Source of the DNA: Halococcus sediminicola
Lineage (GTDB): Archaea > Halobacteriota > Halobacteria > Halobacteriales > Halococcaceae
Direction of reading: 5' to 3'
Length of the DNA: 64,000 bases
NCBI RefSeq assembly: GCF_000755245.1
Contig: NZ_BBMP01000022.1
Coordinates: forward strand, 62,001-126,000
The notes beneath the pieces were generated by a model. That model saw nothing but the letters and a program-made list of their open reading frames with translations, was not told where the DNA came from and searched no databases. Below are positions 48,613-58,446 of the stretch, in pieces (the stretch's first letter is position 1; each line of letters begins with the position of its first letter). A program made the position numbers and the translations under genes.

Positions 48613-48671
48613 GTTACGGGTGAATGGAAACCATTATGGGGTTCACGACGCAAGAGACGAGCGATAGGACG

Positions 48672-49577
48672 ATGGCACGTTTAGAACTGAACGACCTCCA
48701 TGCAGAGGTCGCTGAGGGCGGCGAGAAGATCCTCGATGGCGTGAGCCTCGAAGTCGAATCGGGCGAGATCCACGCACTGATGGGGCCGAACGGGTCGGGC
48801 AAATCGACCACCGCGAAGGTCATCGCGGGCCACCCGGCCTACGAGGTCACCGGTGGCGAGGTGCTCATCCACCTCGACGACGACGAGTTCGAGGGCGTCG
48901 AGATTCCAGACGACATGCGCACGTGGAACCTCCTGGAGCTCGAACCGAACGAGCGCGCGGCGCTTGGCGTGTTCCTCGGCTTCCAGTACCCCGCCGAGAT
49001 CGAGGGCGTCACGATGGTGAACTTCCTGCGCACGGCCTTGAACGCCAAACTCGAAGAGCGCGAGGACCTCTTCGAGGGCGACGAGGGCGCGGATGACGAA
49101 GAAGAGGAGGCGGGCTACGAGACCTCGCCGATGGAGGGCGACATGGACGAAGGCGAGGTCGGCGTCGCCGAGTTCCAGCAGATCATGTCCGAGAAGATGG
49201 AGCAGTTGGACATGGACGCCGCGTTCGCCCAGCGCTATCTCAATGCAGGGTTCTCCGGCGGCGAGAAAAAGCAAAACGAGGTGCTGCAGGCCGCGATCCT
49301 CGAACCGTCGGTCGCGGTGCTCGACGAGATCGACTCGGGGCTCGACATCGACCGTCTCCAGGACGTCTCGAAGGGGATCAACGCGCTCCGTGACGAGCAG
49401 GGCGCGGGCATCCTCCAGATCACCCACTACCAGCGGATCCTCGACTACGTCGAGCCGGATCACGTCCACATCATGCTCGACGGCAAGATCGCCAAGAGCG
49501 GCGGTCCCGATCTCGCCCGCAGACTCGAAGACGAGGGCTACGACTGGGTCCGCGAGGAAGCCTACGAGACAGCCTGA
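48672..49577 (+). CDS. sufC: Fe-S assembly ATPase SufC
   Basis: A 301-residue ABC-type ATPase of the SUF Fe-S cluster system. Walker A is GPNGSGKST (residues 38-46), the signature FSGGEKKQNEVLQ, and Walker B VAVLDEIDSGLD. An acidic insert of about 35 residues (near 130-165, from FEGDEGADDEEEE) is longer than in bacterial SufC and is a halophile feature. The ATG at 48672 (MARLEL) is chosen. It powers the SufBCD scaffold with the next two genes. Confidence 0.96.
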   Translation: MARLELNDLHAEVAEGGEKILDGVSLEVESGEIHALMGPNGSGKSTTAKVIAGHPAYEVTGGEVLIHLDDDEFEGVEIPDDMRTWNLLELEPNERAALGVFLGFQYPAEIEGVTMVNFLRTALNAKLEEREDLFEGDEGADDEEEEAGYETSPMEGDMDEGEVGVAEFQQIMSEKMEQLDMDAAFAQRYLNAGFSGGEKKQNEVLQAAILEPSVAVLDEIDSGLDIDRLQDVSKGINALRDEQGAGILQITHYQRILDYVEPDHVHIMLDGKIAKSGGPDLARRLEDEGYDWVREEAYETA

Positions 49578-49605
49578 TAAGGCTTCGACCACTACAGACC
49601 ACACA

Positions 49606-51039
49606 ATGAGTTCAGATCAAGACCACCTACGAGAGACCGACTCGGAGAAGCGCTTCGAGTTCAAGAAAGAACAGTCCTCGGCGTTCCAGGCCGAGAAGGG
49701 AGAACTCGACGAGGAGACCATCCGCCTGATCTCCGAGGACAAGGACGAACCCGAGTGGATGCTGGAGCGGCGGCTCCGCGCGCTCCGGCAGTTCCACGCG
49801 ATGCCGATGCCGACCGACTGGCCGGGCCAGCCCGACCTGAGCGAGGTCGACGTTGAGGAGATCGTCCCGTACATCCGCCCGGACGTCGAGATGCGCGGCG
49901 GCGTCGACGACTGGAACGAACTGCCAGAGGAGATCAAGGACACCTTCGACAAACTGGGAATCCCCGAAGCGGAGAAGAACGCACTCTCCGGTGTGGGTGC
50001 CCAGTACGAATCCGAGGTCGTCTACCAGAACATGCAGGAGCGCTGGGAGGAGAAGGGCGTCATCTTCTGCAACATGGACAAGGCAGTCCAAGAGCACCCC
50101 GAAATCGTCAAGGAGTACTTCATGACGAAGTGCGTGCCGCCGTCGGACAACAAGTTCGCGGCGCTGCACGGAGCCATCTGGTCGGGTGGCTCGTTCGTCT
50201 ACGTCCCCGAGGACGTCACCGTGGAGATGCCCGTCCAGGCGTACTTCCGGATGAACTCGGAGGGGATGGGTCAGTTCGAGCACACGCTCATCATCGCCGA
50301 GGAGAACTCGGAAGTCCACTACATCGAGGGCTGTTCGGCACCCAAGTACAGCAAGTTCAACCTCCACTCGGGCGGCGTCGAGGTGTTCGTCAAGGAGAAC
50401 GCCCACGTCCAGTATTCCACCGTCCAAAACTGGTCGAAGAACACCTACAACCTGAACACCAAGCGCGCGATCTGCGAGTCCGAGGGGACAATGGAGTGGA
50501 TTTCGGGGTCGATGGGGTCGAAGGCCACGATGCTCTACCCCTCGACCATCCTGAAAGGTCGCGGCGCGACCGACAACCACATCACCATCGCCTTCGCCGG
50601 CGAGGGCCAGAACATCGACACCGGTGCGAAGGTCTACCACAACGCGCCCCGCACTAAATCGACCATCGAGTCGAAGTCGATCTCGAAGGACGGCGGTCGC
50701 ACCAACTATCGAGGACTGGTGCACATCTCCGACGGCGCGGAGAACTCCAGTACGTCAGTGGAGTGTGACGCGCTGATGTTCGACAACGAGTCGACCTCCG
50801 ATACGATGCCGTACATGGAGATCGAGGAGTCGAAGGTCGACGTCGCCCACGAGGCTACTGTGGGGAAGATCGGCGACGAGGACGTCTTCTATCTCCAGTC
50901 GCGCGGGCTGGACGACGACGACGCCAAACAGATGATCGTCGCCGGGTTCATCGAGCCGATCACCGAAGAACTACCCATCGAGTACGCCGTCGAGCTCAAC
51001 CGACTCATCGAACTCGAAATGGAAGGGAGTCTCGGGTAA
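49606..51039 (+). CDS. sufB: Fe-S assembly scaffold SufB
   Basis: A 477-residue SufB, the scaffold on which Fe-S clusters form. It has the beta-helix core (EGCSAPKYSKFNLHSGGVEV, GSMGSKATMLYPSTIL) and conserved residues in GRTNYRGLVHISDGAENS. SufB binds SufC and SufD in the cytoplasm. The acidic N terminus of about 40 residues is halophilic. Starts 28 nt after sufC and ends 3 nt before sufD. Confidence 0.96.
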   Translation: MSSDQDHLRETDSEKRFEFKKEQSSAFQAEKGELDEETIRLISEDKDEPEWMLERRLRALRQFHAMPMPTDWPGQPDLSEVDVEEIVPYIRPDVEMRGGVDDWNELPEEIKDTFDKLGIPEAEKNALSGVGAQYESEVVYQNMQERWEEKGVIFCNMDKAVQEHPEIVKEYFMTKCVPPSDNKFAALHGAIWSGGSFVYVPEDVTVEMPVQAYFRMNSEGMGQFEHTLIIAEENSEVHYIEGCSAPKYSKFNLHSGGVEVFVKENAHVQYSTVQNWSKNTYNLNTKRAICESEGTMEWISGSMGSKATMLYPSTILKGRGATDNHITIAFAGEGQNIDTGAKVYHNAPRTKSTIESKSISKDGGRTNYRGLVHISDGAENSSTSVECDALMFDNESTSDTMPYMEIEESKVDVAHEATVGKIGDEDVFYLQSRGLDDDDAKQMIVAGFIEPITEELPIEYAVELNRLIELEMEGSLG

Positions 51040-51042
51040 TCG

Positions 51043-52254
51043 ATGAGCGCGCAGATACACGCAAATCTCACCGAGGAGCAGGTTCGGGAGATTTCCGAGG
51101 GTCTCGACGAACCGGAGTGGCTGCTCGACGAGCGCCTCGACGCGCTCGCGGCGCTCGACGGTCTCGACATGCCCGACGTCATCCGGACGCCGGGGCGCAA
51201 CTGGACGAACCTCTACAACCTCGATTTCGAGAACCTCGTCGATCCGCTCAACGCGGCCGAGGAGAAGGATCAGGTCGGTCCCGAGGAGGTCGAGGTCCTG
51301 TCCATCGCGGAGGCGCTCGCCGAGCACGAGGACCTCGTCCGCGAGCACTTCGGCTCGATCATCGATCCCACCGAGAACTACCTGACGGCGCTCCAGACGG
51401 CGCTGTTTTCGACTGGCACAGTCGTATTCGTTCCCGACGGCGTCGATGCCGAGGATGTCACCGTGCGCACGCGGATGAACTCGCGGTCGCTGTTCAACTA
51501 CACGCTCGTCGTGACGGGTGAATCGAGTTCGGTGACGATTCTCGAACGCCAGACGACTGGCGACGAGATCGACGGCGAGCGCTACTACTCGGGACTCGTC
51601 GAGATCGCCGCCGGCGAGAATTCAAATGTGCAGTACGGCTCGCTCCAGAACGTCGATGAGGAGACGTACACCTACACGCTCAAGCGCGGTCACGCCGACA
51701 CCTACGCCACCGTCAACTGGATCGAAGGCAACGTCGGCTCGCGGCTCACCAAGTCCTCCGTCGAGACGCGGCTGCTCGGCGAAGGTTCCGAATCGAAGAT
51801 CGTCGGAGCCTTCTTCGGCCACGACGACCAGCATTTCGACGTCGCCTCTCGTGTCTGGCACGAGGCAGAACATACTACTGCGGACCTCGTGACCCGGGGC
51901 GTGCTCGACGACGAGGCGCGCTCGGTCTACGAGGGTGTTCAGGACGTCGGCCGCGAGGCGTGGAACACGAGTTCCTACCAGCGTGAGAACACCCTGATGC
52001 TGAGCGACGAATCGGAGGCCGACGCGTCCCCCAAGCTGATCATCAACAACCACGACACCGAGGCGAGCCACTCGGCGACGGTCGGACAGGTCGACCAGCA
52101 GGACCTGTTCTACATGACCTCGCGGGGGGTCTCACCGCGGGCGGCACGGAACATGCTCGTCGAGGGCTTCTTCGTTCCCGTCCTGGACGAGATCGCCGTA
52201 GAGGAGTTCCGCGACGACCTCGACGATCTCGTGGCGGCGCGCCTGCGGGAGTAA
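51043..52254 (+). CDS. sufD: Fe-S assembly protein SufD
   Basis: A 403-residue SufD, partner of SufB in the SufBC2D complex. The beta-helix domain holds ENSNVQYGSLQNVDEETYTY and the C-terminal helix (HSATVGQVDQQDLFYMTSRG, then AARNMLVEGFF) forms the SufC contact. The two proteins share the fold of SufB, as expected. Starts 3 nt after the sufB stop, so it is cotranscribed. Confidence 0.95.
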   Translation: MSAQIHANLTEEQVREISEGLDEPEWLLDERLDALAALDGLDMPDVIRTPGRNWTNLYNLDFENLVDPLNAAEEKDQVGPEEVEVLSIAEALAEHEDLVREHFGSIIDPTENYLTALQTALFSTGTVVFVPDGVDAEDVTVRTRMNSRSLFNYTLVVTGESSSVTILERQTTGDEIDGERYYSGLVEIAAGENSNVQYGSLQNVDEETYTYTLKRGHADTYATVNWIEGNVGSRLTKSSVETRLLGEGSESKIVGAFFGHDDQHFDVASRVWHEAEHTTADLVTRGVLDDEARSVYEGVQDVGREAWNTSSYQRENTLMLSDESEADASPKLIINNHDTEASHSATVGQVDQQDLFYMTSRGVSPRAARNMLVEGFFVPVLDEIAVEEFRDDLDDLVAARLRE

Positions 52255-52330
52255 CCGTTTACTGCCTCCGGTTCTCGACGTTTCTCATGCACGACATCGA
52301 GGCATCGATTTTCGAGCGCGCTTTCCGTGG

Positions 52331-52819
52331 ATGGCAGCCGTGAGCGTCAGCCAACCGGTGGCCTCGGACCACCAGCTCGCCCGGCTCCTCCAGATCGGGA
52401 TGGTCCTCGAAGAGGTCGTCGAGGCGCGTGCCCACCAACACCACTCCGCGGGGGACGACCTCGACGCCGACATCGAGGACCTCTTGGAGCACGCCGCCGA
52501 GGAATCGGCCGACCACCGCGACCGGCTGGCGGCGCTCATCGACGACCTCGACGCCGAACAGGTTCCGTTCGAACAGATCGAACCGCTCGTCGCCGCCCAC
52601 TACGAGCGCGACCGCGACACCGATGGGATCCTCTACGATCAACTGTGCAACGAAGAGACTGCCTACAAGTTCTACGACGACCTCATCGCCGCGGTCGAAT
52701 CGAGTGCCGCGACGTTCGGCATCGACCGCGGGCGCCTGCTCGACACCCTCTCGACCATCCGCGCCGAGGAAGCGGAGGGGGCCGAGGAGGTCACACGATT
52801 GATGGAGGCGCGCGAATGA
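52331..52819 (+). CDS. Ferritin-like/rubrerythrin-fold protein
   Basis: A 162-residue all-helical protein of the ferritin-like superfamily, with potential di-iron ligands in GMVLEEVVEARAHQHHSAG and LLEHAAEESADHRDRL, and later NEETAYKFYDDLI. Iron storage, iron chaperone or oxidative protection is likely from the fold and position, directly between sufD and a DtxR-type regulator. The ligand pattern is not fully standard, so di-iron binding is inferred. ATG at 52331; a GTG nearby is possible. Confidence 0.7.
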   Translation: MAAVSVSQPVASDHQLARLLQIGMVLEEVVEARAHQHHSAGDDLDADIEDLLEHAAEESADHRDRLAALIDDLDAEQVPFEQIEPLVAAHYERDRDTDGILYDQLCNEETAYKFYDDLIAAVESSAATFGIDRGRLLDTLSTIRAEEAEGAEEVTRLMEARE

Positions 52820-52850
52820 GTTCTCCCTTCCATTGCCGGAGGTGGCGCAA

Positions 52851-53282
52851 GTGAACTCGGCAGAGCAGTATCTGAAGGCCATCTATCTCGTTCAGCAGGT
52901 CGAAGACGGCCCGGCGGCCACGGGGCGGTTGGCCGAGAGCCTCGACGTGAGTCCGGCGAGCGCCAACGAGATGATCGGCAAGCTCGAAGCGCGCGGGCTG
53001 GCCGACCACGAGAAGTACAAGGGCGTGACGCTCACCGACGAGGGTATTGAGCGCGCCCGCGAGTCGCTCCAGACCTACTGCATCATCGAGCGCTTCCTCG
53101 TGGAGGTGCTCGACGTCGAGGACTTTCGCACCGAAGCGGGTCAACTCGAAAGTGTCATCGACGAGACGGTCGCCGAGCGCCTCGACACCATCATTGACCG
53201 CGAACCGCAGTGTCCCGACTGCTTTGCCCCCGACGAGGACGTCTGTGCGCTGCTCGACGCCGAGACCGGCGCGGCCGATTGA
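52851..53282 (+). CDS. DtxR/SirR-family metal-dependent regulator
   Basis: A 143-residue DtxR-type repressor. The N-terminal winged helix (AEQYLKAIYLVQQ, then RLAESLDVSPASANEMIGKLEARGLADHEK) is followed by a dimerisation/metal domain (ESLQTYCIIERFLVEVLDV). The end carries CPDCFAPDEDVC, an extra cysteine cluster that may bind metal. It probably responds to iron or manganese and could control the suf/ferritin-like genes upstream. The GTG at 52851 (read as MNSAEQYL) is chosen. Confidence 0.87.
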   Translation: MNSAEQYLKAIYLVQQVEDGPAATGRLAESLDVSPASANEMIGKLEARGLADHEKYKGVTLTDEGIERARESLQTYCIIERFLVEVLDVEDFRTEAGQLESVIDETVAERLDTIIDREPQCPDCFAPDEDVCALLDAETGAAD

Positions 53283-53331: not shown

Positions 53332-53404
53332 AGTCCCGTGGTGTAGCGGCCAATCATAATGGCCTTTGGAGCCATTGACGGCGGTTCGAATCCGCCCGGG
53401 ACTA
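53332..53404 (+). tRNA. tRNA-Gln (anticodon UUG)
   Basis: A 73-nt cloverleaf. The acceptor stem AGTCCCG pairs with CGGGACT, followed by discriminator A. The anticodon stem ATGGC/GCCAT encloses CTTTGGA with anticodon TTG. The T arm is GGCGG-TTCGAAT-CCGCC. The D arm (GTGT/TCAT) is weaker, with one mismatch. The CCA end is not encoded. It decodes CAA (and CAG by wobble). No att duplication was seen next to it. Confidence 0.95.
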
Positions 53405-53424: not shown

Positions 53425-53736
53425 CTAAAACAGATCGAGTCCGAGCATCTCTTCTTGGATCTCGTTGCCGGCCCGAATGTGACATTCGCTCCGTGGATTC
53501 GCGCTGCACAGCAACACGTAGCCCTCTTTCTTGTCCTCTTTTTCGAGGGCCATCCCGTCGCTCTGGTCGACCTCCCCTTCGAGCAGTTTGCCGGTACAGG
53601 TGGTGCAGTTTCCCTCTCGACAGGAGTAGGGCAGGTCGAGACCCGCTTCGAGACCGGCGTCGAGGACGTACTCGCCCTCGCTCACGTCGAGTTCGTGGGT
53701 GTCGCCATCGAACTCGATGGAGACTCGATGACTCAC
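53425..53736 (-). CDS. Plant-type [2Fe-2S] ferredoxin
   Basis: A 103-residue ferredoxin with Cys39, Cys44, Cys47 and Cys77 (C-x4-C-x2-C-x29-C), the plant-type pattern: CREGNCTTCTGKL and LLCSANPRSEC. It lacks the long N-terminal domain of the abundant halophile ferredoxin. It is the last gene of a three-gene overlapping operon, its ATG inside the stop of the 95-residue gene, so it most likely gives electrons to the di-iron protein encoded first. Confidence 0.92.
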   Translation of the reverse strand: MSHRVSIEFDGDTHELDVSEGEYVLDAGLEAGLDLPYSCREGNCTTCTGKLLEGEVDQSDGMALEKEDKKEGYVLLCSANPRSECHIRAGNEIQEEMLGLDLF

Positions 53737-54020
53737 ACGCGCTGACGGAGCTTGTACATCTCGAGCGCTTCGAGGCGCGGGTCGCCGGTGCTACTGGTGT
53801 CCTCGTCGAGGCTCGCGCCGCTGACCATCTCGTTGAACGAAGTGCTGACGCCCTCCTCCTCGAACGACGAGTCCATGATGTAGGCCACGTTGTCCCGGAT
53901 CTCCTCTTCGCTCTCGTCGAGTTCGTCGGCGGCCTCGGCGATGGCTTCGTCGACTTCCCCCTCGCTCGCGGTGAACGATGCCCCGCGGGCGAGTTCGCGG
54001 AGTTCGCGGTCCTGGGCCAT
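53733..54020 (-). CDS. 95-residue protein of the di-iron operon
   Basis: A small, very acidic, helical protein (GASFTASEGEVDEAIAEAAD) with a C-terminal motif LEALEMYKLRQRV. No cysteine, no membrane segment, no recognised domain. Its gene overlaps both neighbours (1 nt with the R2-like gene, 4 nt with the ferredoxin gene). The size and position recall the small coupling proteins of di-iron monooxygenases, but there is no sequence proof. Confidence 0.65.
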   Translation of the reverse strand: MAQDRELRELARGASFTASEGEVDEAIAEAADELDESEEEIRDNVAYIMDSSFEEEGVSTSFNEMVSGASLDEDTSSTGDPRLEALEMYKLRQRV

Positions 54021-55069
54021 CAGTCGTCACCCCCATCGGCGGCGACGCCACGCTTTCGCTGATAGTGGCTCTCCTGGTCTTCGAGCCGGGCGTCGAGATC
54101 CCACTCGGTGATCTCGTCGTATCGAGCACTCACACGGTCCATGACCTGCATGTAATCGACGTCACAGCCCAAGGTCTCGTTGTACATCCCGTCGATGAGG
54201 TTCCCGCCGCGCATGAGCGTCGCGTCGATGTCGAGACCGAGCGGGTCGCCCACCGCCTCGGTGTACATGTAGGCGAAATCGGCCATGTAGGGGACATCCT
54301 CGTAGAGCGTGTTCACGATGCCGTCCTCGACGCCCTGATAGGCCGGTTCGCCGGCGCGCTCCTTTTCCAAGAGTTCCTTCAGGAGTTCGACGCCGTGGGT
54401 GATGTGGCGACCCTCGTCGGTGCTGATGAACTTGAAAGCGTAGTTCAGTAAGGGGAGGTTCGCCCGTTCGGGCAGTTTGCTGATGGCTGTGGAACCGACT
54501 CGTGCGAGGATTCCCTCGACGTTCAGGTGGTAGTTCGTTGCAGCCTTGGCGATGTCTACTGGGTCTTTGGTCTGTGCGGCTTTGGCGGTCAAGAGACCTT
54601 GATGTTCGAACACCTCGCCCAGTCCCGTAGTTTGGACGATGGGGACCCGTGTTCCGCGCCGCGGGTCGAGTTCGGTGTAGTTGTCGCGGTCGTCCATCAC
54701 CTCGTTCATGTAGATGTCGAGGAACTGGGTGTGTTTGTGCTCGGTGAGGGTGAGCATCGTCATGAACATCTCCTTCTGTCGGTTGCCTGCCAAGCAGTCG
54801 GCTCCCATCGCCCGCGAGAGGTTGGTGGCGGCGTCGCCGGCGACCTCGGTCTCGCCATCTAAAAAGCCCGACAGCAGATATCGAATCTGGTTGCGCTCGT
54901 CCTCGTCGAGCGATGCCCACGCCTCGCGGTCCTGCTCGAAGCCGATCTCGTCGAACAGTTTCTCGACGTTCCACGTGCCCAGTTCGACACCCTTCTGGAA
55001 CAGCTGATACCACTTGTCCCCAGTGTCGATGCGCTGGCCGGCGTACGTCGGTTCGACTGGCTGTGCCAT
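54020..55069 (-). CDS. R2-like di-iron oxidase (R2lox-like)
   Basis: A 349-residue ferritin-fold protein of the ribonucleotide-reductase R2 superfamily. Metal ligands fit Glu73 (or Glu75), Glu110-x2-His113 (TEHKHTQF), Glu185 (HLNVEG) and Glu219-x2-His222 (DEGRH). The residue four after His113 is Leu117, so the canonical radical Tyr is missing. Val76 and Tyr180 lie at the same distance from their ligands as the Val-Tyr cross-link pair of R2lox enzymes. It may be a ligand-binding oxidase or oxygenase rather than RNR. The ATG at 55069 lies under a TATA/operator region. Confidence 0.8.
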   Translation of the reverse strand: MAQPVEPTYAGQRIDTGDKWYQLFQKGVELGTWNVEKLFDEIGFEQDREAWASLDEDERNQIRYLLSGFLDGETEVAGDAATNLSRAMGADCLAGNRQKEMFMTMLTLTEHKHTQFLDIYMNEVMDDRDNYTELDPRRGTRVPIVQTTGLGEVFEHQGLLTAKAAQTKDPVDIAKAATNYHLNVEGILARVGSTAISKLPERANLPLLNYAFKFISTDEGRHITHGVELLKELLEKERAGEPAYQGVEDGIVNTLYEDVPYMADFAYMYTEAVGDPLGLDIDATLMRGGNLIDGMYNETLGCDVDYMQVMDRVSARYDEITEWDLDARLEDQESHYQRKRGVAADGGDD

Positions 55070-55123: not shown

Positions 55124-55816
55124 TTAAAATAGGTATCGGCTGTCGACCCGTCCGGCCGTGTCGCCCAACTCCTGGGCGGCCTCGCTGTATGGCAGAATCG
55201 TGGTCGTCGAGCCGTCGAGTTCGAGGTCTTCGGAGAAGATGGATTCCATCACGTCCGCACCCTCCAGAAGATCCTTCCAGTTCCCGTAGGGACCGACGAT
55301 CCGGAACCCGGGGTCGCGCGCTTCGGGATCTTCGAGAACCGCAGTCTCACGGCACTCGCCATCGTGGAGGTCGACGTACGCGTGGATGGTGTCCTTGTGG
55401 AGATACCGCTCCAGTTGATCGAGCAGGTCGTCGAGGTCGGCGGGGAACGCCTCCCGAAGGGTGGGGAACGTGATGGCGGGGGCATCGGCCACGGGGGTCG
55501 CCATCACCGCCGCGACGAGCCGTTCGTGGTCGCTGCCCTCTTGATCGGCCAGTCGCCCGTCGAGTTCGTCCGGTGTGCCGGCGAGCAGCGTTTCGACCCG
55601 CTCTTGGGAGAGCGACTGGAGATTCTCACGAAGTTCCCGCGAAAGCTCCTCGGGGAGGTCCCCGAGCGGTGTCTCGGTGGGAACGTCCGTGATTTCGAAG
55701 ACGAAATCACCCGCGAAATCGACGCCCCAACCCTCGCTCGCCTCCCGGTAGGCCTGATTGTCGTTCAGCGCCGCCCGATACGCGGCGAGCCACTCGCGCG
55801 ATGGAAACCACTCCAT
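55124..55816 (-). CDS. SCP2-like protein with a large insert
   Basis: A 230-residue acidic protein. The start (WLAAYRAALNDNQAYREASEGWGVDFAGDF) and end (GFRIVGPYGNWKDLLEGAD, ILPYSEAAQELGDTAG) match archaeal sterol-carrier-protein-2-like domains, which bind lipophilic ligands such as acyl-CoA. Between them is an unusual helical insert (about residues 45-140, opening VPTETPLGDLPEELSREL). What the insert does is unknown. The ATG at 55816 is used. It lies upstream of the di-iron operon on the same strand and divergent from a second SCP2 gene. Confidence 0.65.
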   Translation of the reverse strand: MEWFPSREWLAAYRAALNDNQAYREASEGWGVDFAGDFVFEITDVPTETPLGDLPEELSRELRENLQSLSQERVETLLAGTPDELDGRLADQEGSDHERLVAAVMATPVADAPAITFPTLREAFPADLDDLLDQLERYLHKDTIHAYVDLHDGECRETAVLEDPEARDPGFRIVGPYGNWKDLLEGADVMESIFSEDLELDGSTTTILPYSEAAQELGDTAGRVDSRYLF

Positions 55817-55914: not shown

Positions 55915-55997
55915 CACCTGTTATCCATCGAAGCAAGCCCATTGTGATCCCGGTCATCCCCGGTAGTACGGTCGGCCACGACGCCGACACAAAAATC

Positions 55998-56564
55998 ATG
56001 CCAGACGAACAACTCATCCGTCGCATCGAGGACTCGCTCGAACAGGACCAAGACCAGCTCGAAGAGGATCTGCCCGAGATACTCGCCGACATGGAGGGCC
56101 AGACCGACGAGCTCGTGCGCGAGCACCCGCAGGTGATGGCGAGCATTCTCGGGCGCATGGAGGAGATGGACATCGCCTCGTTCGTCTCCGAAAACCCCGA
56201 GACCGCAGACCAGTTCCAGGAACTGCTCTGGTCGGGGATGCGCGTGATGGTTGAACAGAACCCCGAGGTCAAAGAGCAAATCAACGAGGATATCACGACG
56301 AATTTCGAGGCCGACGACTGCCCGATGGAGGGCCATCTCGAAGTCAGAAAAGAAGAGGAACTCATCACCGGCGGGGCGGGTCAACTCGACGACGCCGACA
56401 TCACCATCACCGGGCCCGCGGACGTGCTGGTGGGTCTCATCACCGGGAACGTGGACCCGATTCAGGGGTTCATGCAGCAGCAGTACGAGATGGATGGCCC
56501 GGTCCAGAAGGGCACGAAGCTCGCGCCCATCATGAACAGCCTCTCCGAGCAGGTGCCCGAGTGA
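55998..56564 (+). CDS. SCP2 sterol-transfer family protein
   Basis: A 188-residue protein. The first half is acidic and helical (LEQDQDQLEEDLPEILADM); the second is a standard SCP2 domain, CPMEGHLEVRKEEELITGG followed by DADITITGPADVLVGLITG and DPIQGFMQQQYEMDG. It would bind fatty acyl or isoprenoid ligands. It starts an operon: the acyl-CoA dehydrogenase follows 1 nt later, which fits delivery of acyl-CoA to that enzyme. Confidence 0.85.
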   Translation: MPDEQLIRRIEDSLEQDQDQLEEDLPEILADMEGQTDELVREHPQVMASILGRMEEMDIASFVSENPETADQFQELLWSGMRVMVEQNPEVKEQINEDITTNFEADDCPMEGHLEVRKEEELITGGAGQLDDADITITGPADVLVGLITGNVDPIQGFMQQQYEMDGPVQKGTKLAPIMNSLSEQVPE

Positions 56565-56565
56565 G

Positions 56566-57774
56566 ATGGAGCTAACCGACGACCAGCAGGCGTTCCGCGC
56601 GGACCTCCGGGAATACCTCGACGACACCATCGACCCGATCGTCGACGAGTCGGATCGAAACGGGCCGATGAGTCGGGACGAACTGATGGGCTACATCGAC
56701 GACCTGAACGAACTCGGCGTCGGGTTCGACCCCGAGACGGCCCCGAACTTCTTCGGCGACGTCTGGAACTTCACGATTGCCGCCGAGGAGATCAGCTACA
56801 CGTGGCCGAGTCTCTTGGTAGGCGTGATGATGTCCTTTCCCGCGCTGTTCGTCCAGTTCGCATCCGAGCAGACCCGCGAGGCGATGCTCCCCAAACTCGA
56901 AGACGGCGACTGTCTCTCGGCGCTCGCCGTCACCGAGCCGAAAGGCGGCAGCGACACCGCTCGGCCGAACACCGTGGCGAAAAAAGACGGCGAGGAGTTC
57001 GTTTTGAATGGAGAGAAGACGTGGGTCGGCAACGCCCACTACGCCGACTGCGTGCTCGTGGTCGCCCGCGACGACTCGACGGGGGCCTCGGACATGTTCA
57101 TGGTCGACAGGGAGAACAATGCCTTCGAGACCGAGGAACTCGACAAGATGGGCTGGAAGGGTGTCTCGAACGCGACGATCTCCTTCGACAACGTGCGCGT
57201 GCCCGAGGGCAATCGCCTCTCGAACATGTTCTCGAACGCCATCATGGCGGGCAACGACATGAACGACATCGTGCCGTTCCCCGAAAGTGTCACACAGCTG
57301 TTCTTCGACCAGAAACCGCTGAACGCGACGTTCTCGTTCATGCGCACGGGGATGTCGTTCATGTCCGTGGGCATCATGCAGGCGGCCTTCGACGCCGCGC
57401 TCGACCGGGCGACCGACCGCGAGACGTTCGGCAAGCCGATCGCCGAACACCAACTCGTCACCGAGAAGCTGTACGACATGAAGGCCGGTCTCGAAACCTC
57501 CCGCCAGCTCTCGCGGCGGGCGGCCGAACTGCTCGAAGACGGCAGCGAGGACGCGCGCCTGATGTCCTCGCTGGCGAAGGGCTACACCAGCGAGACGTGT
57601 AAGGACGTGACCGACGACGCCCTACAGGTGTACGGCGGCGAGGGCCTGAAGACCGAAAACCGGCTCGAACGCTACTACCGCGACGCCCGTGTCATGACCA
57701 TTCCCGACGGCACCACCGAGATCCAGAAGCTCATCGTCGGGAAGGAACTCACCGGCCAGAGCGCGTACAACTGA
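56566..57774 (+). CDS. Acyl-CoA dehydrogenase family flavoprotein
   Basis: A 402-residue acyl-CoA dehydrogenase fold: N-terminal helices, FAD segment ALAVTEPKGGSDTA, WVGNAHYADCVLVVARDD, and C-terminal YGGEGLKTENRLERYYRDAR then MTIPDGTTEIQ. At the usual catalytic Glu of the EGT motif the residue is Asp381 (PDGTTE). It could still act as base, or mark a changed substrate. Substrate chain type is unknown. In operon with the SCP2 and HTH_10 genes. Confidence 0.87.
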   Translation: MELTDDQQAFRADLREYLDDTIDPIVDESDRNGPMSRDELMGYIDDLNELGVGFDPETAPNFFGDVWNFTIAAEEISYTWPSLLVGVMMSFPALFVQFASEQTREAMLPKLEDGDCLSALAVTEPKGGSDTARPNTVAKKDGEEFVLNGEKTWVGNAHYADCVLVVARDDSTGASDMFMVDRENNAFETEELDKMGWKGVSNATISFDNVRVPEGNRLSNMFSNAIMAGNDMNDIVPFPESVTQLFFDQKPLNATFSFMRTGMSFMSVGIMQAAFDAALDRATDRETFGKPIAEHQLVTEKLYDMKAGLETSRQLSRRAAELLEDGSEDARLMSSLAKGYTSETCKDVTDDALQVYGGEGLKTENRLERYYRDARVMTIPDGTTEIQKLIVGKELTGQSAYN

Positions 57775-57777
57775 CCC

Positions 57778-58446
57778 GTGCAGCAACCGACCGAGGAGCA
57801 AGGACACGTCAGGCATTTCACGCTCTCGCTCCGGCCGGGGGAGGGTCTCGTCCACCCCGTCGACGACGCGCTCGCGGCCGCGCCAGCCATCGGCCGGGAG
57901 TCGCTGAGCCACATCCAGAGTCACGGCGGGACGAGCGCGCTGTGTTACCGGCTGCAGGGCGATGAAACGTCCCTCGCGAGCGTGCTCGACGAGCGCCCGG
58001 ACGTCCTCGTCTCCGACCACATCCGCGACCACGAGGGCGCGTTCGGGCTGTATCTCCGCGTCGAGGGGTGTCTCGATACGTTCGAGCGGTGTTTCTTCGA
58101 ACAAGGGCTGCTCGTCGACCCGCCGGTGACGTTCCCCGGTCATGGGCTTCCCCTGAGCGTCATCGGTACGCCCGCGATGGTCAAGCACGCGATGGAGCGC
58201 CTGCCCGACGGGACGGCCTGTTCGGTCGAGCGACTGGGTGCGGCGAACGCCGACCGACAGCTACTGGCGACGCTCACTGACCGCCAGCGCGAGGTCATCG
58301 AGACGGCCTTCGAACTCGGCTACTACGAGATCCCCCGGCAGACGACCCACGCCGACATCGCGGCCACGCTCGACCTCTCGGGGTCGACCGTCGACGAACA
58401 CCTCCGGAAGGCCGAAGCCAGACTGATGGAACAGTTGCTCTCCTGA
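57778..58446 (+). CDS. HTH_10 (bacterio-opsin activator-type) regulator
   Basis: A 222-residue haloarchaeal transcription regulator. The C-terminal HTH_10 domain is LTDRQREVIETAFELGYYEIPRQ followed by HADIAATLDLSGSTVDEHLRKAEA. The N-terminal 150 residues are a sensing or dimer domain with no recognised ligand motif. Starts with GTG 3 nt after the dehydrogenase stop, so it probably regulates its own operon or a lipid-related set. Confidence 0.85.
   Translation: MQQPTEEQGHVRHFTLSLRPGEGLVHPVDDALAAAPAIGRESLSHIQSHGGTSALCYRLQGDETSLASVLDERPDVLVSDHIRDHEGAFGLYLRVEGCLDTFERCFFEQGLLVDPPVTFPGHGLPLSVIGTPAMVKHAMERLPDGTACSVERLGAANADRQLLATLTDRQREVIETAFELGYYEIPRQTTHADIAATLDLSGSTVDEHLRKAEARLMEQLLS

Follow-up and report, generated by a model that had tools for sequence, protein, structure and literature searches.

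The window, that is, the whole stretch of 64,000 nucleotides of Halococcus sediminicola DNA that was analysed, contains three minus-strand genes that run into one another: one for an R2-like protein, one for a protein of 95 residues and one for a [2Fe-2S] ferredoxin (Table 1). The R2-like and 95-residue genes have 1 nt in common (TGATG) and the 95-residue and ferredoxin genes 4 nt (GTGA); the coordinates (53425-55069) and the overlaps given for this trio in the original prediction are exact. Because dN/dS is low against two other Halococcus genomes (about 0.09 for the R2-like gene, 0.07-0.15 for the 95-residue gene and 0.12-0.18 for the ferredoxin gene), all three are, by this measure, real genes under purifying selection.

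Table 1. Genes of the trio and of its immediate surroundings in the window.
Feature	Position	Strand	Remarks
Ferredoxin gene	53425..53736	-	GTG start, 103 aa; plant-type [2Fe-2S]
95-aa protein gene	53733..54020	-	acidic, mostly helical; no known family
R2-like gene	54020..55069	-	ATG start, 349 aa; R2lox-like dinuclear-metal protein
SCP2-like (sterol/lipid carrier fold) gene	55124..55816	-	directly upstream of the R2-like gene, 54 nt gap
SCP-2 sterol transfer family gene	55944..56564	+	divergent; PF02036 7.8e-8
Acyl-CoA dehydrogenase gene	56566..57774	+	PF00441 2e-42
HTH_10 (bacterio-opsin-activator type) regulator gene	57778..58446	+	PF04967 8e-20, PF24278 2e-18

The R2-like protein is 88% identical to a record from H. 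thailandensis and matches Ribonuc_red_sm in Pfam (E 6e-9). In NCBIfam it matches the R2-like ligand-binding oxidases (R2lox) at 1e-27, with 96.9 bits and thus below the cut-off of 194, and it passes no R2lox equivalog cut-off of that collection. The ferredoxin matches Fer2 in Pfam (E 3e-21) and the plant-type [2Fe-2S] ferredoxins in NCBIfam (98 bits, above the cut-off of 81); it stands alone, with no fused flavin reductase domain according to Pfam. The 95-residue protein has no family match in Pfam.

The metal site was compared by aligning 33 members of the new R2 type with 29 ordinary R2lox proteins and two NrdB proteins. The ligands Glu73, Glu110, His113, Glu185, Glu219 and His222 are invariant in all 33 members, with Glu and not Asp at the first position. 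Glu73 and Glu75 had both been considered for this first ligand; because position 75 is Ala in 22 of the 33 members, Glu75 drops out and the choice falls on the invariant Glu73. With Glu73 as ligand, the predicted R2lox spacing, with a Val three residues after the first ligand and a Tyr five residues before the third, fits well. These residues, Val76 and Tyr180, are present in 33/33 members of the new type and in 29/29 ordinary R2lox proteins, are found in neither NrdB, and align with the two residues that form the Val-Tyr ether in solved R2lox proteins. None of the 33 has a Tyr at position 117, the site of the radical Tyr in ribonucleotide reductase (RNR); the residue there is Leu, Phe, Ile or Val, which bears out the earlier reading of Leu117 in the window protein.

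Among the residues named as specific for R2lox (PMC3824934), the Lys of the EXKH motif (K112), the Ala after the third ligand (A189) and the Arg of DEXRH (R221) are present in every one of the 33. The same source lists a Gly before the first ligand, a Pro nine residues after it and a Tyr eight residues after the third ligand. The Gly is kept in 29 of 33 members, the window protein among them, and replaced by Leu in one subclade of four (L044, L045, L046 and L069), whose native Leu at position 72 is the change that was engineered in the R2lox G68L structures of the PDB. The Pro (position 82) is present in 29/29 ordinary R2lox proteins and absent from all 33 of the new type, which have Arg, His or Thr. 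The third position is Tyr in 12 members, Phe in 11, Ser in five (including the window protein), Ala in three and Gly in two.

The fold leads in the same direction. The AlphaFold2 model of the R2-like protein (pLDDT 90) has only R2lox proteins among its top 29 PDB matches in Foldseek, followed by class Ic R2 proteins; this structure search places it nearest to R2lox and not to RNR R2. In a tree, the new type is monophyletic (100/100) and falls among the R2lox proteins with NrdB outside, though branches are long and bacterial rows few, and no exact place within R2lox is claimed. Residues, structure search and tree thus agree on an R2lox-type site rather than an RNR site. That the protein could be a degenerate or auxiliary small subunit of a class I RNR, as its Pfam match might suggest, is hardly conceivable and is in practice already refuted: the radical Tyr is missing, the R2lox signature is present and no RNR large subunit lies near the trio at the locus examined. 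A separate NrdA-NrdB pair, in which the NrdA gene adjoins a true NrdB gene, is encoded about 355 kb from the trio on its contig, and a second large-subunit gene lies on another contig. An ordinary R2lox is encoded on a third contig (G000:C21:119450-120112, L137); it has no ferredoxin or small partner nearby and provides a ready comparison.

Since it lies below every NCBIfam cut-off and lacks one R2lox-specific residue, we call the R2-like protein a new, deep subfamily that probably works like and descends with R2lox, outside the existing R2lox equivalog families. With Rv0233 of M. tuberculosis, GkR2loxI of G. kaustophilus and SaR2lox of S. acidocaldarius it has in common the fold, the six ligands with Glu first, the Val/Tyr pair, the lack of a radical Tyr, and the Lys of EXKH and Arg of DEXRH. 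However, identity to R2lox is only about 20-30%, and besides the lost Pro82 the new type has Asp71 for Ala, an invariant Arg190 mostly for Gln, and Tyr267. A further difference lies in its company, namely an obligate 95-residue partner and usually a ferredoxin.

Profile searches of 392 haloarchaeal genomes found the new R2 type and the 95-residue protein in the identical 33, belonging to 11 of 95 genera, which include Halococcus, Halocatena, Haladaptatus, Natrinema, Natrialba, Natronococcus, Haloglomus and Halorientalis. The two genes are neighbours on one strand at every locus examined, with no more than about 90 nt between the end of the R2 match and the start of the small gene, and the small protein never occurs without its R2 in the 392 genomes. 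The ferredoxin gene comes next in 30 of the 34 distinct loci, as counted from the locus table, and an SCP2-like gene lies at 3 kb or less in 28 of the 34; in one MAG, a thioesterase gene occupies the usual place of the ferredoxin. No small-protein or ferredoxin match was found at 14 ordinary R2lox loci, haloarchaeal and bacterial. Outside the Halobacteria no copy was found in the 393 genomes of the phylum that were searched, residual matches at E 0.004-0.01 being stretches of long unrelated frames, and the genome scan gave only haloarchaeal matches plus one ordinary R2lox of Gordonia. Judged by this distribution, the 95-residue protein is an obligate partner of the new R2 type, and the trio is a dedicated unit whose conservation, as had been asked of it, extends beyond the source genome.

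The small protein belongs, as far as can be read from its sequence, to a new family of small proteins, acidic and 85 to about 118 residues long. Conserved patches are FTAS..E with the following helix, NE...G and a C-terminal DPRLEALExYKLRQ. Its AlphaFold2 model, of modest confidence (pLDDT 65), is made up of four helices and one disordered stretch. Nothing credible was found among solved sequences (best E 0.015, an unrelated enzyme) or, with this model, among known folds (best E 2). Because the C-terminal helix is so strongly conserved on a small acidic protein, its sequence suggests a docking element.

The surroundings of the trio, which did not figure in the original prediction, add a lipid theme. 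The product of the gene directly upstream has no Pfam match alone, but its alignment profile matches the Thermus SCP2 structures 1wfr/2cx7 at about 1e-13, and from its recurrence the gene is counted as part of the conserved module. The divergent genes follow each other at 1-3 nt; the SCP-2 gene is kept at many trio loci and HTH_10 homologues recur beside them. HTH_10-type regulators also adjoin five ordinary haloarchaeal R2lox genes (L135, L136, L139, L141 and L144), which hints that the two kinds of R2 gene are regulated alike. The acyl-CoA dehydrogenase of the cluster has Asp381 (IPDGT for IYEGT) where solved short- and medium-chain acyl-CoA dehydrogenases have their catalytic Glu. This holds for 23/23 cluster members, while an unrelated 571-residue acyl-CoA dehydrogenase near the trio of one MAG keeps the Glu; a change of chemistry or substrate is possible.

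The fullest loci, in Natrialba, Natrinema and Natronococcus, combine genes for HTH_10, a FabG-like SDR, a FadD-like fatty acyl-CoA ligase, SCP2, acyl-CoA dehydrogenase and SCP2-like proteins with the trio, an aldehyde dehydrogenase (ALDH) and a Zn-dependent alcohol dehydrogenase (Zn-ADH). Halorientalis loci contain HTH_10, R2, small protein, ferredoxin, SCP2-like, SCP2 and acyl-CoA dehydrogenase genes. The theme of ligase, ADH and ALDH is common to bacterial loci of ordinary R2lox. On the other side of the trio, beyond a tRNA-Gln gene (53332-53404), the window holds sufC-sufB-sufD-like genes, a ferritin-like gene (named after a plasmid homologue) and a DtxR-type iron repressor gene (48624-53282). 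A functional link to these was rejected; the arrangement is common to the nearest Halococcus genome (L037) and not to L038, and is judged to be local.

From the observed relationship in sequence and fold, the metal and cross-link residues, the obligate pairing and the gene neighbourhood, we infer the catalytic steps, substrate class, metal, electron path and small-protein role that follow. The R2-like protein would be an R2lox-type oxidase or oxygenase that activates O2 at a Mn/Fe or Fe/Fe centre and is expected to carry a Val76-Tyr180 ether. Because SCP2-like, acyl-CoA dehydrogenase and fatty-acid genes adjoin the trio, its substrate is probably hydrophobic: an alkane, fatty acyl or isoprenoid chain, which the SCP2-like proteins may present. 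A two-electron oxidation, either hydroxylation or desaturation, would take place at the metal site, which the ferredoxin would re-reduce, while the helical 95-residue protein may dock on R2 for gating, coupling or assembly. The products could then pass to the acyl-CoA ligase, acyl-CoA dehydrogenase and alcohol and aldehyde dehydrogenases. On balance, we regard this as probably the right picture: a ferredoxin-fed oxygenase or oxidase of R2lox type, whose obligate partner is the small protein and whose outlet is acyl-CoA metabolism.

Several observations sit less easily with it. Four of the 34 loci have no adjacent ferredoxin gene, no ferredoxin reductase gene is present in the cluster and five other ferredoxin-like matches occur in the source genome. 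In Halocatena, Haladaptatus and YIM the loci are bare, with only SCP2-like, R2, small-protein and ferredoxin genes within 10 kb. Furthermore, a second Halorientalis pair of R2 and small protein (L045:9220-10546, L046:9433-10759, L069:9998-11306 and L146:8506-10140) is found in a cobalt/cobalamin setting instead. Its neighbours are CbtA, a ChlI/VWA protein and CobN or, in L146, where a ferredoxin accompanies the pair, a gene at about 2 kb that, judging by its sequence only, probably encodes cobyric acid synthase. It is nevertheless very improbable that the unit serves cobalt or cobalamin metabolism and that its lipid neighbourhood is secondary, as this context is limited to one subclade and most loci have SCP2-like but no cobalamin genes.

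Two other readings differ from this picture in the chemistry assumed. Ferredoxin-fed di-iron desaturases are a familiar pattern, and the acyl-CoA dehydrogenase and SCP2-like neighbours would also suit an enzyme that puts a double bond, and not a hydroxyl group, into a bound acyl or isoprenoid chain. Modelling of how the cross-link forms had led to the proposal that R2lox carries out desaturation (PMC4118035), but the ALDH and alcohol dehydrogenase genes of the Natrialbaceae loci are better suited to hydroxylation, and we hold this variant to be unlikely, though one to be reckoned with. Alternatively, the ferredoxin might only reduce or repair the metal site, with the small protein as metallation or assembly chaperone and R2 as a slow or single-turnover oxidase. 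In E. coli nrdA-nrdB-yfaE, an R2-family subunit is likewise followed by a small [2Fe-2S] ferredoxin with a 1-nt overlap, YfaE reducing or repairing the metal site of NrdB, and the trio ferredoxin weakly matches the YfaE model (26 bits); this system is, however, an RNR with radical Tyr and NrdA, and no 95-residue protein comes between. In vitro, once its cofactor has activated O2, R2lox itself carries out a single two-electron oxidation, that of the cross-link (PMC6399176). Such an upkeep role also seems rather improbable: the close association of the trio with lipid-carrier and acyl-CoA genes points to a catalytic pathway, and ordinary R2lox, that of the source genome included, manages without either partner nearby.

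For the oxygenase or oxidase fed by the ferredoxin, there is a bacterial parallel in logic. Soluble methane monooxygenase (sMMO), phenol hydroxylase and PaaABCDE combine a di-metal hydroxylase, an auxiliary protein of about 90 residues and a plant-type [2Fe-2S] donor. The trio has the same component logic, but its small protein has no detected homology to MmoB/DmpM or PaaB in Pfam (no MmoB_DmpM match at E up to 1, and an all-helical model of modest confidence), its ferredoxin lacks an FAD/NAD domain and its putative hydroxylase is of R2lox type. It can tentatively be imagined, with rather more doubt than confidence, that the trio is the first case of an R2lox subunit at the core of a multicomponent monooxygenase or desaturase, with a new class of small effector, a dedicated ferredoxin and lipid delivery by SCP2-like proteins.

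In work attributed to Kumar in 2020, an R2lox gene of Halorientalis hydrocarbonoclasticus is said to go up on hexadecane. Hexadecane induction of an R2lox gene in a Halorientalis is also mentioned in PMC10867098. Which copy responds would be very informative, as all six named Halorientalis records with matches carry the trio. In solved R2lox the V-Y ether is formed and the metals carry a long-chain fatty acid (PMC6399176), and E. coli lysate with GkR2loxI lowers C10-C22 alkanes (PMC10867098); in the latter work the activity was only partly lost in a double mutant of the metal ligands, which counts against the proposed picture, and no native donor was known. As in other bacterial R2lox loci, the neighbours there belong to lipid metabolism: the GkR2loxI gene adjoins genes for alcohol and aldehyde dehydrogenases, a long-chain acyl-CoA ligase and an acyl-CoA dehydrogenase, but neither a ferredoxin of its own nor a small partner or SCP2-like gene is reported (PMC10867098). 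R2lox as an alkane hydroxylase is already published (PMC10867098), so the oxygenase idea is not new. Of the original prediction of a dedicated oxygenase or oxidase, the R2lox-type site and the conserved trio stand. New, as far as the open-access literature shows, are the R2lox subfamily itself, its small partner and the ferredoxin dedicated to it; no description of this combination was found there.

The physiological role of R2lox has been debated since its structures appeared. The trio supplies a ferredoxin, a strict partner and lipid-handling neighbours, and so makes a reconstitution test feasible; it offers the parts missing from the lone report of activity, alkane oxidation in a bacterial lysate, with no native electron donor and a partial mutant effect. 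Through this subfamily, R2lox, with its disputed job, gains native partners to test. If the multicomponent proposal is true, the trio would represent an independent archaeal route to the logic of the bacterial multicomponent monooxygenases.
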